DNA of 64,000 nt from the IMG/VR virus record IMGVR_UViG_3300046736_000061, positions 1-64,000 of that record. One strand, 5' to 3'. The position numbers and the translations under genes were made by a program. Source of the DNA: a virus. Below the pieces are notes generated by a model. The model was not told the origin of the DNA. It saw nothing but the letters and a program-made list of their open reading frames with translations, and made no database searches. Positions 6,193 to 58,047 of the stretch are shown here, in pieces. Numbering within the stretch: position 1 is the stretch's first letter; the number at the start of each line of letters is the position of its first letter.

Positions 6193-6215
6193 TAACTAGA
6201 CATAATGTCTACTTA
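6193..6215. repeat. R1 palindrome, centre 6204
   Basis: 17 bases upstream of the ATG at 6232. Confidence 0.92.
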
Positions 6216-6231
6216 TTGCTAATATGTATTT

Positions 6232-6468
6232 ATGAAAAACTTAATTTTTAAAATATTGGATTTACATGAGTGCGATCACTGTGGAATAGTTTTCACTGGT
6301 AAAATTTGGGAAGCGGATACATATAATCCATCGAGCCACGACCGGGTAGAATTATGTCAACGATGTGGTGACCCGTGGTTTGCAGAAGCGGTAATTGAAA
6401 ATAAACCATTGAAGCGTAAGCGGCCACCCGAGCCGCCTTACATTGCTACTACGGAAGTGCGGAAATAA
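6232..6468 (+). CDS. small zinc-ribbon protein
   Basis: A 78-residue protein with two cysteine pairs, CDHC (14-17) and CQRC (42-45), the spacing of a zinc ribbon, then a basic proline-rich tail. No Shine-Dalgarno. R1 lies directly upstream and a terminator downstream, so it is a single-gene unit. Function unknown; small zinc ribbons in phages are often nucleic-acid or RNA-polymerase binding. Confidence 0.75.
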   Translation: MKNLIFKILDLHECDHCGIVFTGKIWEADTYNPSSHDRVELCQRCGDPWFAEAVIENKPLKRKRPPEPPYIATTEVRK

Positions 6469-6507: not shown

Positions 6508-6532
6508 GGCGCGAAAAGCGCCGTTCTTCTTT
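6508..6532 (+). terminator. Rho-independent terminator
   Basis: GGCGC-GAAAA-GCGCC then GTTCTTCTTT. Similar to the terminator at 5422, including the upstream CTACCCACC (6493-6501). Confidence 0.75.
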
Positions 6533-6553
6533 ACTGGACATAATGTCTACTTA
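6531..6553. repeat. R1 palindrome, centre 6542
   Basis: Between terminator and structured element. Confidence 0.92.
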
Positions 6554-6570
6554 GTGTTATATTGAAGACA

Positions 6571-6642: not shown

Positions 6643-6665
6643 TAACTGGACATAATGTCTACTTA
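6643..6665. repeat. R1 palindrome, centre 6654
   Basis: Upstream of the sigma factor gene; a weak ACGC-TTTA-GCGT hairpin (6666-6677) adjoins it. Confidence 0.92.
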
Positions 6666-6694
6666 ACGCTTTAGCGTACGTTGCTAGACAAAAT

Positions 6695-7372
6695 ATGAAT
6701 AACGATCTCATACTCGCCCACGAACTCGCCTCTGGAAATGAAGAAGCCTTCTCTAAGTTTTATAAAGAGACTCAAGGTAAAGTGTTCGGTATTTGTTATA
6801 ATATTCTGCACAGCCAGGCAGATGCCGAAGATATGGTTCAAGAAGTTTTTATGGCGATTGCGAAAGGTGTTAGCAAGTATAAAGGTGATGCGAAACTTTC
6901 TACTTGGGTACATCGAGTTGCAGTTAATCAGTGTTTGATGAAACTACGATTAGCTAAACATAAATTCTGGTCAGATAAAATTGACAACGAAGAAGACCAC
7001 GAAGCGATTTTCAGTAAATTATGCGCAACGCCTTCTCATGATCTTAATATAGACATAAGGTCTGCAATTAAACTTCTGCCTCCTGGCTATAAAAATGTTT
7101 TACTATTGCATGACGTTGAAGGATTAGAGCATCCAGAAATAGTAAAGGTGTTAGGAATATCAGAAGGTACTTCAAAATCTCAATTACACAAAGCGCGAAC
7201 GAAAATGAAGAAGGTTCTTAATCGAAAAAAAAATCCGAAGGTCGCCTCTTATTTTCCTGCGCGAGCTATTTCTAAACTGATAACTGCCAGAGAATGTTCC
7301 GCTTGTAAAATACCGCGTCAATTTGGACAACTTGTTTCTTGTGGTTATTGTGGAGCAGGAGCCAATGCATAA
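6695..7372 (+). CDS. ECF-type RNA polymerase sigma factor with C-terminal zinc ribbon
   Basis: A 225-residue protein with sigma-70 region 2 at about 15-85 (FYKETQGKVFGICYNI, then DAEDMVQEVFM, then STWVHRVAVN) and region 4 at about 120-170 (LPPGYKNVLLLHDVEGLEHP, then a helix-turn-helix with GTSKSQLHKARTKMK). The C-terminal 25 residues carry C201, C204, C216 and C219, a zinc-ribbon pattern not usual in ECF factors. It would redirect RNA polymerase, and its place at the head of the structural region suggests late-gene control. No Shine-Dalgarno. Its stop overlaps the next start. Confidence 0.88.
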   Translation: MNNDLILAHELASGNEEAFSKFYKETQGKVFGICYNILHSQADAEDMVQEVFMAIAKGVSKYKGDAKLSTWVHRVAVNQCLMKLRLAKHKFWSDKIDNEEDHEAIFSKLCATPSHDLNIDIRSAIKLLPPGYKNVLLLHDVEGLEHPEIVKVLGISEGTSKSQLHKARTKMKKVLNRKKNPKVASYFPARAISKLITARECSACKIPRQFGQLVSCGYCGAGANA

Positions 7373-7547
7373 ATTTGAAGACCTTACCGGCGAACAGCGA
7401 CAGAATCTTTCTCTTGAAGACTTTCTCGAATACTGTCCTCCTAATGAAATATTGCATTTTCATTTTGGCACAGCCGGGAATCAGGGTAAGTGTCAAATAA
7501 CAGCAGGAGAGTTAAAGTTAATTCTTGACATTGTAAAGGATTCGTAG
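7365..7547 (+). CDS. small protein coupled to the sigma factor
   Basis: A 60-residue acidic protein starting at ATG 7365, with AGGAGCCA before it and an 8-base overlap with the sigma gene's end. A longer upstream in-frame start would lie inside the sigma gene. Tight coupling to a sigma gene suggests an accessory or anti-sigma role, but no domain is recognised and there is no membrane segment. Confidence 0.65.
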   Translation: MHKFEDLTGEQRQNLSLEDFLEYCPPNEILHFHFGTAGNQGKCQITAGELKLILDIVKDS

Positions 7548-7553
7548 TATTCT
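7525..7553 (+). promoter_or_regulatory. sigma70-type promoter
   Basis: TTGACA (7525-7530), 17-base spacer, TATTCT (7548-7553). It overlaps the end of the preceding gene and directly precedes a hairpin and a strong terminator. Confidence 0.7.
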
Positions 7554-7559
7554 AAAAAG

Positions 7560-7636
7560 GCTCGGGTGTCATCGAGCGGTGTGATTGGGGTTGTTGGGCT
7601 TTCCGTTATTCACCAACAACCCCAATTTAATTTTTG
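7560..7636 (+). ncRNA. candidate small RNA or terminated leader
   Basis: Begins near the expected start of the promoter at 7525-7553. It has a hairpin GCTCG/CGAGC (7560-7577), then the 14-bp terminator stem. The product would be about 75 bases and has no ORF. It could equally be an attenuated leader of the structural operon. Confidence 0.5.
7584..7636 (+). terminator. strong Rho-independent terminator
   Basis: A perfect 14-bp stem, ATTGGGGTTGTTGG (7584-7597) with CCAACAACCCCAAT (7613-7626), then TTAATTTTT. Confidence 0.85.
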
Positions 7637-7642
7637 ACAAGT

Positions 7643-7767: not shown

Positions 7768-7790
7768 TAACTAGACATAATGTCTACTTG
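7768..7790. repeat. R1 palindrome, centre 7779
   Basis: Upstream of the gene at 7855. Confidence 0.92.
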
Positions 7791-7854
7791 ACGATTTATC
7801 GTTAGGCTTCAATCGTTTTCGCGGTGGTTCTCGTTAAAACCGCTAGAAATAAAA

Positions 7855-9651: not shown

Positions 9652-10221
9652 ATGGAAATTTCAAACGCGCAAATCGTAATCGCGCTTATTGGATTGCTTG
9701 GCGTACTTGTTACAACGGTCGCCGCGGCTTTTGGTATCCCCGCATATACTGGACTTCGCCGTGATATGCGCGAACAACGAGCCGAATCACAAAAAGATAA
9801 AGAAAATTGTGATTCGGTTTTAACTCGACTGAAATCGGAAATTATTGCTCTACAAGGAAAAATTCGCAAAGATACACTCCCGCAATGGCATAAAAACCAA
9901 GCGGGAGTAATTCTTTGGGTGAATACGGTTTATGTGCAGAGGTTTTTAGCCCCATTCGATCAAGACGCTTCTGGTGTTCTTGGCAAGAGCGATGCTGAAG
10001 TTCTCTTCTTTGCGCCAGAATTGAAAGAGACTCTTTCCGCAATGGATAAAGAGGTTAGGGACTTTGGAAGCGCCACCCGTCATGGTGTTCGATTTAATTT
10101 AGATTCCAATCGACGATATACAATAATCAAAGAATTATCTGTTGACCCAATCTTAGGGGTAATTACCTTCTCGGGCATTGCTTGTGAAGAAAGATCGAGC
10201 CCCGCGTTACTTGACTCGTAA
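9652..10221 (+). CDS. membrane-anchored protein with coiled coil and PAS-like domain
   Basis: A 189-residue protein with a transmembrane helix at about 7-30 (IVIALIGLLGVLVTTVAAAF), then a coiled coil at about 35-75 and a PAS-like fold at about 78-180. WHKNQAGVILWVN resembles the PAS opening 'the human behind the message' pattern of sensor proteins, followed by NTVYVQRFLAPFDQDASGVLG and two closing strands (YTIIKEL, GVITFSGIACEE). PAS domains are rare in phage proteins. Ligand and role unknown. Confidence 0.6.
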   Translation: MEISNAQIVIALIGLLGVLVTTVAAAFGIPAYTGLRRDMREQRAESQKDKENCDSVLTRLKSEIIALQGKIRKDTLPQWHKNQAGVILWVNTVYVQRFLAPFDQDASGVLGKSDAEVLFFAPELKETLSAMDKEVRDFGSATRHGVRFNLDSNRRYTIIKELSVDPILGVITFSGIACEERSSPALLDS

Positions 10222-12892: not shown

Positions 12893-14224
12893 ATGAGTAA
12901 AGATTTAAATATTAATCTGCATGCCTTACATCCGGGGCAGTTGGAAGTCTACGAAAATCGAGCTAGATTTAACGTATGCTCATGGGGTCGCCGGGGAGGT
13001 AAGAGCGATTTGAGTTATCCGCTTTTTGCAGAGATATGTAACCATAACCTTAAAAACAATTTATCGGAAGATATGGCTTATATGGCTCCGACATATAAAA
13101 ATTTAAAACCTATTTGGAGAAGGTTTTTAAAAGTTTTTGAGCCTATAATCAGCAGTACAAATACTACAGACTACACGGCGACGATTTTAGATCAGTTCGT
13201 TATTGAATTTTGGAGTCTTGATAAACCAGAAAACATTCGTGGACGTGAATATAGACGTGTTATTATTGATGAGGCGGCCTTAATTTTAAATTTACAGGCT
13301 GTTTTTAAACTTATCATCCTTCCTACGCTTGGAACTTTACAAGGAGATGCGTGGTTTTTTTCTACCCCTCGCGGATTTAATGATTTTCACTACTTTTACG
13401 AACTTGGACAGAATCCGATTTTCACAGATTGGGTAAGCTGGATTCGTCCAACTGCAATGAATCCGTTTTTCCCGCCAGAAGAACTTGAAGAACAGCGAAA
13501 ATTACTCACCCCCGAAGAATTTGCTCAAGAATGGGAAGGAAAATTCGTTGCTTTGGGTAATTCGCCATTTAATACCGATGATTTTCATAAACATCAGACT
13601 TATGAAGGTTGTTTAGCAACAATTAAAGACCAAATTCCCCTTTATCATATTTGTTATTGGGATATTGCTGATAGTGAAGATGGGGATTATACTGCTTCTG
13701 TTCGTTTAACCATCACTGACACTCCAAATTTCATCTTATCGCGTCCTTTTGCTCGAAAAGGCAAATGGGGAGCGAATTACGAGTCGGTAGTTGCTCATAT
13801 TTTAGCAAATCCAGATGCTATTCACGTCTTTGAAACGGAAGGAGTTGGCGGAATTGCTTGGTATATGATTAGTACAGACCCAAGATTGAAGGGTATGAAC
13901 ATGATGCCAGCCGGTCGTGCTTTTACACGTCAAAATAAGGAAGAAAGAGCAAATATTTGGGCTATTGAACTTAGAAATAAGCGTATGCACCTTATTCAAG
14001 ATGCTGGCTATCAAGATTTGCTTAGACAAGTTGCCGGTTATCCACATTTTGACAATGATGATTATATAGATAGCGTTTCTGGCGGCTTTTTAACCTTTGT
14101 TTATATTTACGGTGGCTATGAGAAGTTATTAGAGTCTAAAATTTTAGCACCGCAGACTGCTAAAGAAGATAAATACGATTATCGTACAGAGCAGTTAGTG
14201 AATCAATTAAGAGATTTGTATTAA
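12893..14224 (+). CDS. terminase large subunit
   Basis: A 443-residue packaging motor protein. Walker A GRRGGKS at 32-38, Walker B VIIDE at 123-127, ATPase coupling motif STPRG at about 157-161. The C-terminal RNase H-like nuclease has the acidic residues of YWDIADSEDGDY (about 255-266), VFETEG and DNDDYIDS near 395. Full length for the family. It packages DNA at the portal. No Shine-Dalgarno. Confidence 0.93.
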   Translation: MSKDLNINLHALHPGQLEVYENRARFNVCSWGRRGGKSDLSYPLFAEICNHNLKNNLSEDMAYMAPTYKNLKPIWRRFLKVFEPIISSTNTTDYTATILDQFVIEFWSLDKPENIRGREYRRVIIDEAALILNLQAVFKLIILPTLGTLQGDAWFFSTPRGFNDFHYFYELGQNPIFTDWVSWIRPTAMNPFFPPEELEEQRKLLTPEEFAQEWEGKFVALGNSPFNTDDFHKHQTYEGCLATIKDQIPLYHICYWDIADSEDGDYTASVRLTITDTPNFILSRPFARKGKWGANYESVVAHILANPDAIHVFETEGVGGIAWYMISTDPRLKGMNMMPAGRAFTRQNKEERANIWAIELRNKRMHLIQDAGYQDLLRQVAGYPHFDNDDYIDSVSGGFLTFVYIYGGYEKLLESKILAPQTAKEDKYDYRTEQLVNQLRDLY

Positions 14225-14260: not shown

Positions 14261-14596
14261 ATGTTAGAATATTGCTTATGGTTAGCCGCTTGTGTTATAT
14301 TGATAATGTTTTCGTTATTTACTATCGCTTTTGGTATTTTTGGTATTGTTTTTTGTATCAAACAATCCTCTCTTTGGTTAAGCATAATTCTTGATAACAT
14401 CACTTCTTGGGTAAAACTTTTTAGGCATCCTATATTCGCTATTGCGTTAGATGCGAAAGACTTAGATTCGTTAAACAGCAAGTACACCGACATAAACTTA
14501 TATGAACTTCTTACAACCATATACCGCAATAGACGAGAACGAATATCTAAGCGACGAAAAGACGCAGAACGTCAAAGCCTTACAATTAAACCCTAA
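14261..14596 (+). CDS. small membrane protein overlapping the portal gene
   Basis: A 111-residue protein with two hydrophobic helices at about 1-32 (LWLAACVILIMFSLFTIAFG, IFGIVFCI) and a basic C-terminus. The last 95 bases overlap the portal gene in another frame. The ATG follows R1 by a few bases. A real gene is plausible because the membrane part lies outside the overlap. Confidence 0.5.
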   Translation: MLEYCLWLAACVILIMFSLFTIAFGIFGIVFCIKQSSLWLSIILDNITSWVKLFRHPIFAIALDAKDLDSLNSKYTDINLYELLTTIYRNRRERISKRRKDAERQSLTIKP

Positions 14597-20743: not shown

Positions 20744-21114
20744 AAATTCTTCTTTTTCAACAGAAGTTAATACTTCAATTTGAAGAGATTCTAGGGAAAA
20801 TTAAAGAGCCGAAAATTATTACAGGATTTTTAGAAACTCCAACGGTATCGAATTTGACAGTGACGTTTCGGCCAGATACGATTGATGACATTCATTTTGA
20901 TATGAGCAAGAAACGAATTTCATTAAATCTTATTTTACAAACTGCCGAGACGATGATTAAACCGGCTTTTGAACAAGTGAATGGATTGGCTAAAGTTTGT
21001 ATAAATATCGTTAGAGTATTGCAATTACGATACGGATTTATTTATAAAGTACGCTATACTTTAACTAATAACAACCAGATTATTTTAAATCTGAATATAG
21101 AAACAAGCGTTTAA
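20665..21114 (+). CDS. tail terminator-like or hypothetical tail protein
   Basis: A 149-residue protein overlapping the previous gene by 79 bases. It contains DICGLSVIE, a motif also seen in the tail protein at 21602 (DICGLAVVE). The second half has strand-rich segments (RYGFIYKVRYTLTNNN, IILNLNIETSV). Position before the tail tube region suits a tail terminator; the fold is not recognised. Confidence 0.55.
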   Translation: MDVSAPDICGLSVIEGCGEQIEIEEIKILLFQQKLILQFEEILGKIKEPKIITGFLETPTVSNLTVTFRPDTIDDIHFDMSKKRISLNLILQTAETMIKPAFEQVNGLAKVCINIVRVLQLRYGFIYKVRYTLTNNNQIILNLNIETSV

Positions 21115-47630: not shown

Positions 47631-47975
47631 TTAATCTCCTTCTTCTGAATTATTTACTAAAACTACCTGCCCACCACCCCTGCAAACTTCGCAAGGTTTA
47701 AATGAATTTTCTAAATCCCTACCGCTTCCCCCACATAAAGAACAAATCACAATTTGATTTGCCTGTAATGGTCTTTGTAATAAGTTAGCAATCTTTATTT
47801 GAACCGAACCTAATTGCATAATTATTATATTATCTCGGTTCCCTTTAAAAACTTCAAACTCTCCGTCTTCTGTACGAACAGTTAAAATTGCTGTCTTAAC
47901 TTTCGTATGCAATTTCTTTTCGAGTAGCTCTATGGCTTTATCGAAAGTTTCTTGAGTTGTTTTTTGACTGGACAT
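47631..47975 (-). CDS. protein starting in R1 with DnaJ-type zinc finger
   Basis: A 114-residue protein beginning MSSQKTTQ, where the ATG and first codons are the R1 half. The C-terminal part has CSLCGGSG then CEVCRGGG, the CxxCxGxG repeats of DnaJ-like zinc fingers. One zinc site is expected. Function unknown. Confidence 0.72.
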   Translation of the reverse strand: MSSQKTTQETFDKAIELLEKKLHTKVKTAILTVRTEDGEFEVFKGNRDNIIIMQLGSVQIKIANLLQRPLQANQIVICSLCGGSGRDLENSFKPCEVCRGGGQVVLVNNSEEGD

Positions 47976-57736: not shown

Positions 57737-57750
57737 GACGCTTTAGCGTC
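57737..57750. repeat. R2 hairpin
   Basis: GACGC-TTTA-GCGTC (minus strand GACGC-TAAA-GCGTC preceded by AGAACA). Its stem pairs differ from the other copies, with compensated changes. Confidence 0.7.
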
Positions 57751-57911: not shown

Positions 57912-57952
57912 AACTTATTAAATTGTCAAACTCTTTCTCAACTACTAATACA

Positions 57953-57981
57953 ATTATACCACATCTAAATTCTAATGTCAA
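57953..57981 (-). promoter_or_regulatory. consensus leftward promoter
   Basis: On the minus strand TTGACA (57981-57976), 17-base spacer, TATAAT (57958-57953): a perfect match to the sigma70 consensus. It would drive the 57 to 39.7 kb early block, the likely first genes expressed. Confidence 0.88.
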
Positions 57982-57997
57982 GTTTTTGGCTAAAAAA

Positions 57998-58026
57998 GTG
58001 ACATTATGTGAAAAATATGCTATAAT
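57998..58026 (+). promoter_or_regulatory. rightward promoter
   Basis: GTGACA, 17-base spacer, TATAAT. Back to back with the leftward promoter; their -35 elements are only 16 bases apart. Shine-Dalgarno AAGGAG follows at 58040. Confidence 0.75.
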
Positions 58027-58047
58027 TATATTAATAAGTAAGGAGAA

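Follow-up and report, generated by a model that had tools for sequence, protein, structure and literature searches.

An ECF sigma factor of Acidobacteriota type, with an added four-cysteine tail, as a candidate late-transcription switch in a phage

The gene at 6695-7372 (+) of this phage encodes an ECF-type sigma factor of 225 aa. On balance we favour a role for it in redirecting the host RNA polymerase to the late (morphogenesis) genes, as gp36 does in phage phiEco32. Judging by its sequence, the protein is a member of a clade of Acidobacteriota ECF factors, and its gene would have been taken over by the phage lineage. What is unusual in it is the cysteine tail; a switch of this sort is already known in a few other phages. 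The window, that is, the whole stretch of 64,000 nucleotides that was analysed, makes up most of a virus record of 70,494 bases (IMGVR_UViG_3300046736_000061); the ends of the record repeat over ~127 bases, and the virus genome is therefore probably complete.

The sigma factor and its kin

Sigma region 2, which serves core binding and −10 recognition, occupies residues 23-86 (6761-6952, +; Pfam PF04542, Sigma70_r2, 1.9e-15), and region 4, which serves −35 recognition, residues 121-171 (7055-7207, +; PF08281, Sigma70_r4_2, 2.1e-15); both matches exceed the cut-off. The protein also matches PHROG 1740 ‘RNA polymerase sigma factor’ (4.2e-26) and NCBIfam sigma70-ECF (2.2e-27, above the cut-off), and its sequence matches in the PDB are SigW, SigE and RpoE. 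The architecture is that of ECF (group IV) factors: regions 2 and 4 alone, a short linker and neither region 1.1 nor region 3. The acidic core-binding motif of region 2.2 (DAED) is present in ADAEDMVQEVFM, residues 42-53. No second region-2 match was found in the whole virus record (n = 1). The preliminary description had proposed an ECF-type factor with clear regions 2 and 4 and had asked for a structure prediction; the family and PDB matches strongly support the proposal, and so does the prediction, in which AlphaFold models regions 2 and 4 at pLDDT >90, with ECF sigma factors as the top Foldseek matches, whereas most of the tail after residue 186 falls below 50. The product would thus be a functional group IV sigma factor, predicted to bind core RNA polymerase and to direct it to promoters.

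Phage ECF factors had been called uncommon, and so they are, though hardly rare: matches to the window sigma at E<=1e-3 occur in 63 of 50,697 phage records, the best at ~30% identity and many of them crAss-like. A scan of species genomes found ECF factors of Acidobacteriota and Myxococcota, at ~33-42% identity, which have in common with the window sigma the motif HDVEGLEHxE..GTSKSQ(L/V)HKAR. At E<=1e-28 the matching genomes were 85 of 297 Acidobacteriota, 3 of 112 Myxococcota and 1 of 148 Bacteroidota, counts that support the Acidobacteriota kinship. In the tree the window sigma falls inside a supported clade of Acidobacteriota ECF factors and apart from the crAss-like ones; its exact place in the clade is unsure, given the long branch and the use of the motif to choose the sequences sampled. 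The sigma gene, taken alone, hints at an Acidobacteriota host. The closest cellular sigmas (L052, L053) are solitary genes, each facing a divergent gene whose product, 240-292 aa long, is a putative membrane protein.

When the sigma or the portal served as a single query protein, viral contigs yielded no relatives; a scan with an alignment instead returned the contig called L089 here (IMGVR_UViG_3300043480_000021; 69,421 bases, GC 0.57). Its sigma gene (L089:7998-8576) encodes the sister of the window sigma, with tree support of 99/99; over residues 3-189 the two are 44% identical, and their regions 4 hardly differ. Upstream of it lie a terminase (PHROG 38, 1.1e-59) and then a 914-aa gene that has no family match and is a putative portal; downstream lie a 480-aa gene and then the major head protein (PHROG 14242, 4.3e-4). 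The two phages have almost no other genes in common: this type of sigma is kept next to morphogenesis genes in two otherwise different phages. Elsewhere, two A+T-rich viral contigs (L093:7389-8414 and L094:2316-3341) carry an ECF sigma as the rear portion of a fusion, the long N-terminal portion of which has apparent hydrophobic segments, and the ECF sigma of Dulem virus 42 (L016:1450-2079, annotated polymerase/primase) has a single CGNCNIC motif at its end.

A proposed role in late transcription: gene order, promoter-like sites and terminator

Family matches place a series of rightward morphogenesis genes downstream of the sigma gene: terminase at 12893, portal at 14502, protease, major head protein and tape measure. 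The sigma gene had been said to head this structural block. It does precede the block, but it is not the head of its operon, since an intrinsic terminator at 7583-7637 (+; a stem of 15 bp, 7583-7627, ahead of a T-rich run; z −3.9) ends the unit formed by the sigma gene and the 60-codon ORF behind it (ORF60).

The favoured model builds on what the computation shows, namely protein family, kinship, gene context, the terminator after the sigma unit and the distribution of sigma-70-type sites. The main holoenzyme of the host would probably transcribe the sigma gene first; sigma region 2 would then bind the host core RNA polymerase; and transcription would shift, at a late time, to a few promoters in the phage, the likeliest being those of the morphogenesis genes that run rightward next to the sigma unit. 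An upstream site that could play the first part is TGGACA-17-TATATT at 6535-6563 (+), promoter-like by its consensus matches only.

Sigma-70-type sites were scanned with an E. coli matrix, which may not fit the actual host, so that the outcome is suggestive. With this matrix strong sites accompany the leftward units (57981, 61984, 63296, 66158 and 1212); others stand at 57998 (+), at rightward genes of the left end (1257, 1873 and 2300), before the sigma gene (6535) and at 10211 (+). The same matrix finds no non-coding sense site within 10.3-39.8 kb, where non-coding matches are antisense only, and two sense matches inside coding sequence, at 20854 and 33697. The latter two could be host-read promoters, and some of the late genes could be transcribed from the site at 10211 (+). 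A 94-bp inverted repeat at 57943-58036, with palindrome copies on both sides (see below), contains two divergent sigma-70-type promoters, TTGACA-17-TATAAT and GTGACA-17-TATAAT; they are probably the main early promoter pair. At 1908 and 2336, in two neighbouring intergenic spaces, stands an identical 21-mer, AAGTCAGTTTTTAGACTGAAA, with a small hairpin.

A late role is plausible because of the position of the gene, the L089 counterpart with packaging genes on one side and capsid genes on the other, the absence of sense sites of sigma-70 type noted for 10.3-39.8 kb and the precedent of phiEco32 gp36 (PMC4281155). To that extent the suggestion of the preliminary description, that the sigma could direct late transcription, is partly supported; the two routes it named fare worse. 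One, the site TTGACA-17-TATTCT at 7525-7553 (+), inside ORF60, is a fair sigma-70-type match by consensus and matrix scan, but it would make a poor late promoter, because the strong terminator would stop its RNA after ~80 nt unless read through. The other, an element called R1, is taken up in the next section.

Several points speak against the late model: no target promoter was found; the matrix was that of E. coli; there are sites at 10211 (+), 20854 and 33697; and the branch of the sigma is long, which leaves its place in the clade unsure. Canonical ECF promoter pairs are no more frequent in the genome than by chance, and a pairwise motif search upstream of structural genes brought up nothing above chance besides the palindrome. 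Missed targets are weak evidence, because few copies are to be expected: for phiEco32 gp36, three middle promoters and three late ones are reported (PMC4281155).

Another way to read the gene is that the targets of the sigma are early or middle genes of the phage, or that it redirects the host's own ECF regulon, the host holoenzyme reaching the late genes by long read-through. This would suit the close kin of the protein, which are host-type regulators, as well as the empty ECF-pair and motif searches and the sigma-70-type site at 10211. We consider it unlikely, given that the gene adjoins morphogenesis genes in two unrelated phages and that 29 kb of structural genes lack a non-coding sense sigma-70-type site.

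A palindrome before early-like and late-like genes

R1 was taken to be a near-perfect 23-bp palindrome, TAASTRGACATWATGTCYASTTA, which occurs 58 times in the record (e.g. at 6193, 7768, 14232, 36642 and 55267). The copies are nearly all intergenic and occur in both gene blocks; many hold the stop codon of the upstream gene, the next start following 5-30 nt further on. Leftward and rightward, early-like and late-like genes are preceded alike, with a slight bias of orientation with transcription and an A-rich downstream flank. Near the sigma gene there are copies at 6531-6553, whose left half supplies the 6535-6563 site with its −35-like hexamer; at 6643-6665, 29 nt upstream of the sigma start codon; and at 7768-7790, before the first gene of the next block (7855). 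The second and third of these each have an inverted repeat immediately behind them: ACGCTTTAGCGT at 6666-6677 (+) and its counterpart ACGATTTATCGT at 7791-7802 (+), with a base change between the two that preserves the inverted repeat. The general form, ACG(C/A)TTTA(G/T)CGT or ACGNTTTANCGT, has four occurrences in the genome, where shuffles give 0.2, one further copy being at 57738-57749; it is a possible lead to the targets of the sigma.

The palindrome is scarce outside this phage: a scan of viral contigs found four records with one site each, the L089 phage lacks it, and it is nearly absent from 147 Acidobacteriota genomes of the class that carries this sigma type. A search of Rfam gave no match. 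Two identities were considered and rejected: a Leptospira LexA box, from which the published motifs differ, and an RNA hairpin, for which the palindrome is unsuited, A-C mismatches between the sense-strand arms being at least as frequent as G-U. The likeliest prediction is a site for a dimeric DNA-binding protein of the phage. The palindrome is more likely an operator than the promoter of the window sigma, because its 58 copies stand before early-like and late-like genes and the L089 phage has none.

Suppose, nonetheless, that the sigma acts through TAASTRGACATWATGTCYASTTA, the 58 copies being its promoters or operators that overlap them; it would then switch on almost every gene of the phage instead of a late set. 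The palindrome is the sole strongly repeated element before structural genes, it stands 5-30 nt ahead of many start codons and leans slightly with transcription, and its sense half, TAATGTCTA, is one base off the promoter core of phiEco32 gp36, TAATGTATA (PMC4281155), a resemblance for which we keep this alternative in play. The exact core TAATGTATA does not occur in the window genome. The element is essentially symmetric, a dyad rather than a −35/−10 pair, with nothing conserved at −35 distance; it is as frequent before leftward replication-type genes; and it is missing from the L089 phage in spite of the nearly identical sigma region 4, and almost so from the 147 genomes just mentioned. Action of the sigma through R1, and with it late transcription by that route, thus seems improbable to us, and an operator for another protein remains the preferred reading.

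The cysteine tail

The window sigma ends in a CxxC-x11-CxxC tail (C201, C204, C216 and C219; 7295-7351, +). It is present in the window sequence only: alignments of the relatives found, L089 and the cellular clade included, lack it. Where the L089 sigma ends in ...LNRKANPRVFHPSYLAA, with no cysteines, the window sigma continues to ...LNRKKNPKVASYFPARAISKLITARECSACKIPRQFGQLVSCGYCGAGANA, and the tail is therefore, as the aligned sequences indicate, an addition of the window phage lineage. The preliminary description had seen a zinc ribbon here; a domain of that kind has two CxxC knuckles on a small beta fold. The cysteine pattern is real, but AlphaFold does not support the ribbon: it predicts no fold for the tail, either with the body or alone (the tail-alone run being uninformative), and Pfam has no domain in this region. 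Nor does the tail have the HxxxCxxC motif of zf-HC2 / ZAS-type anti-sigma factors, its CxxC pairs lacking histidine.

The tail might accordingly be a functionless run-on extension and not a folded metal domain, a reading that deserves some weight even if we lean the other way. It is known from one sequence only and has low confidence in both AlphaFold models; its last codons double as the ribosome site of ORF60; and its GC3 is 0.15, against 0.32 in the sigma body. However, two CxxC motifs this close arise in only 0.14% of shuffles of the sigma protein (P 0.0014), four other small proteins of the window phage have CxxC pairs, and single-sequence models often miss knuckles that are held by metal. 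Our guess is that the tail binds metal or senses redox and so may tune sigma activity, by analogy with CorE-type ECF factors, in which a C-terminal cysteine tail can gate the factor by metal (PMC8999054). If the tail does bind metal, this would be a new way of gating a phage sigma. The other small proteins with paired CxxC are encoded at 122-487, 6232-6468 and 47631-47975 and by the record gene at 68806-69417.

The overlapping ORF

ORF60 (7365-7547, +) starts within the last sigma codons (ATGCATAA), behind AGGAG, just as had been described, and overlaps the sigma stop by 8 nt. Its description as a coupled partner went further than the overlap allows: about 12 start/stop overlaps of this kind occur in the window genome, where they are common, so that by itself it does not point to a partnership. 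No relative of ORF60 turned up in Pfam, PHROGs, NCBIfam, phage records or viral contigs.

ORF60 might nonetheless be a genuine partner, its synthesis coupled to that of the sigma and its product an anti-sigma factor or a co-factor of RNA polymerase, but we regard this as doubtful. Besides the overlap and the ribosome site, one may point to charge (ORF60 is acidic, net −5, the sigma basic, +9), to the frequency with which anti-sigma genes directly follow those of ECF factors, and to the L089 phage, where a small ORF likewise overlaps the sigma gene at this point. On the other side, ORF60 belongs to no family; it has two isolated cysteines and no HxxxCxxC motif of the zf-HC2 / ZAS type; by eye it has no evident likeness to the L089 ORF; and the closest cellular sigmas have no zinc anti-sigma gene downstream.

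The most elaborate scheme would join all these elements: an ECF sigma, gated through metal or redox state by its four-cysteine tail and assisted by ORF60 as co-factor, would run one global programme from dozens of palindromic intergenic promoter-operators. It would be notable if true, and we hold it to be very improbable.

Comparison with known systems

The CorE-type ECF sigmas of Myxococcus (ECF238, former ECF44; PMC8999054) resemble the window sigma in their cysteine-bearing C-terminal extension, here C201, C204, C216 and C219, and in having no classical anti-sigma factor. They differ in being cellular, and the metal response was shown for CorE types only (PMC8999054). The window sigma is not classed as CorE, because the linker CxC is absent; its linker has one cysteine, C110.

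The ECF sigmas of crAss-like phages (cr4_1, cr56_1, cr118_1 and others) are likewise phage-encoded, but they are <32% identical to the window sigma, stand separate in the tree and lack the cysteine tail. The Acidobacteriota clade with HDVEG(L/F)EHEE..GTSKSQLHKAR (L024-L039, L052-L081) is ~40% identical over residues 3-185, and its closest members also have the KK(A)NP(R/K) stretch after region 4; these factors differ in being cellular and without a cysteine tail, and a zinc anti-sigma-like gene lies downstream of many of them, though not of the closest ones.

To our knowledge, few phage ECF sigmas, those of the phiEco32 group, have a demonstrated late role. The phiEco32 gp36 protein, a Kuravirus-like ECF-type sigma (PMC4281155, PMC7881722, PMC4331800), is phage-encoded like that of the window, but is not close to it in sequence as far as seen, and no cysteine tail is reported for it in these papers. 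In phages of the phiEco32 type the sigma gene is read from host promoters and its product reads middle and late promoters (PMC4331800, PMC4281155), which are few; host-type promoters also read the early genes, and the sigma-70 scan with the E. coli matrix suggests a similar layout in the window.

The nearest counterpart is the L089 sigma, a sister that also adjoins morphogenesis genes and is followed by a small overlapping ORF, in that case with a putative membrane segment; it differs in lacking the tail and the palindromes. The pair make up another lineage of phage ECF factors, of Acidobacteriota type, which adjoins morphogenesis genes in two different phages and its hosts may belong to a phylum for which little is known about phages.
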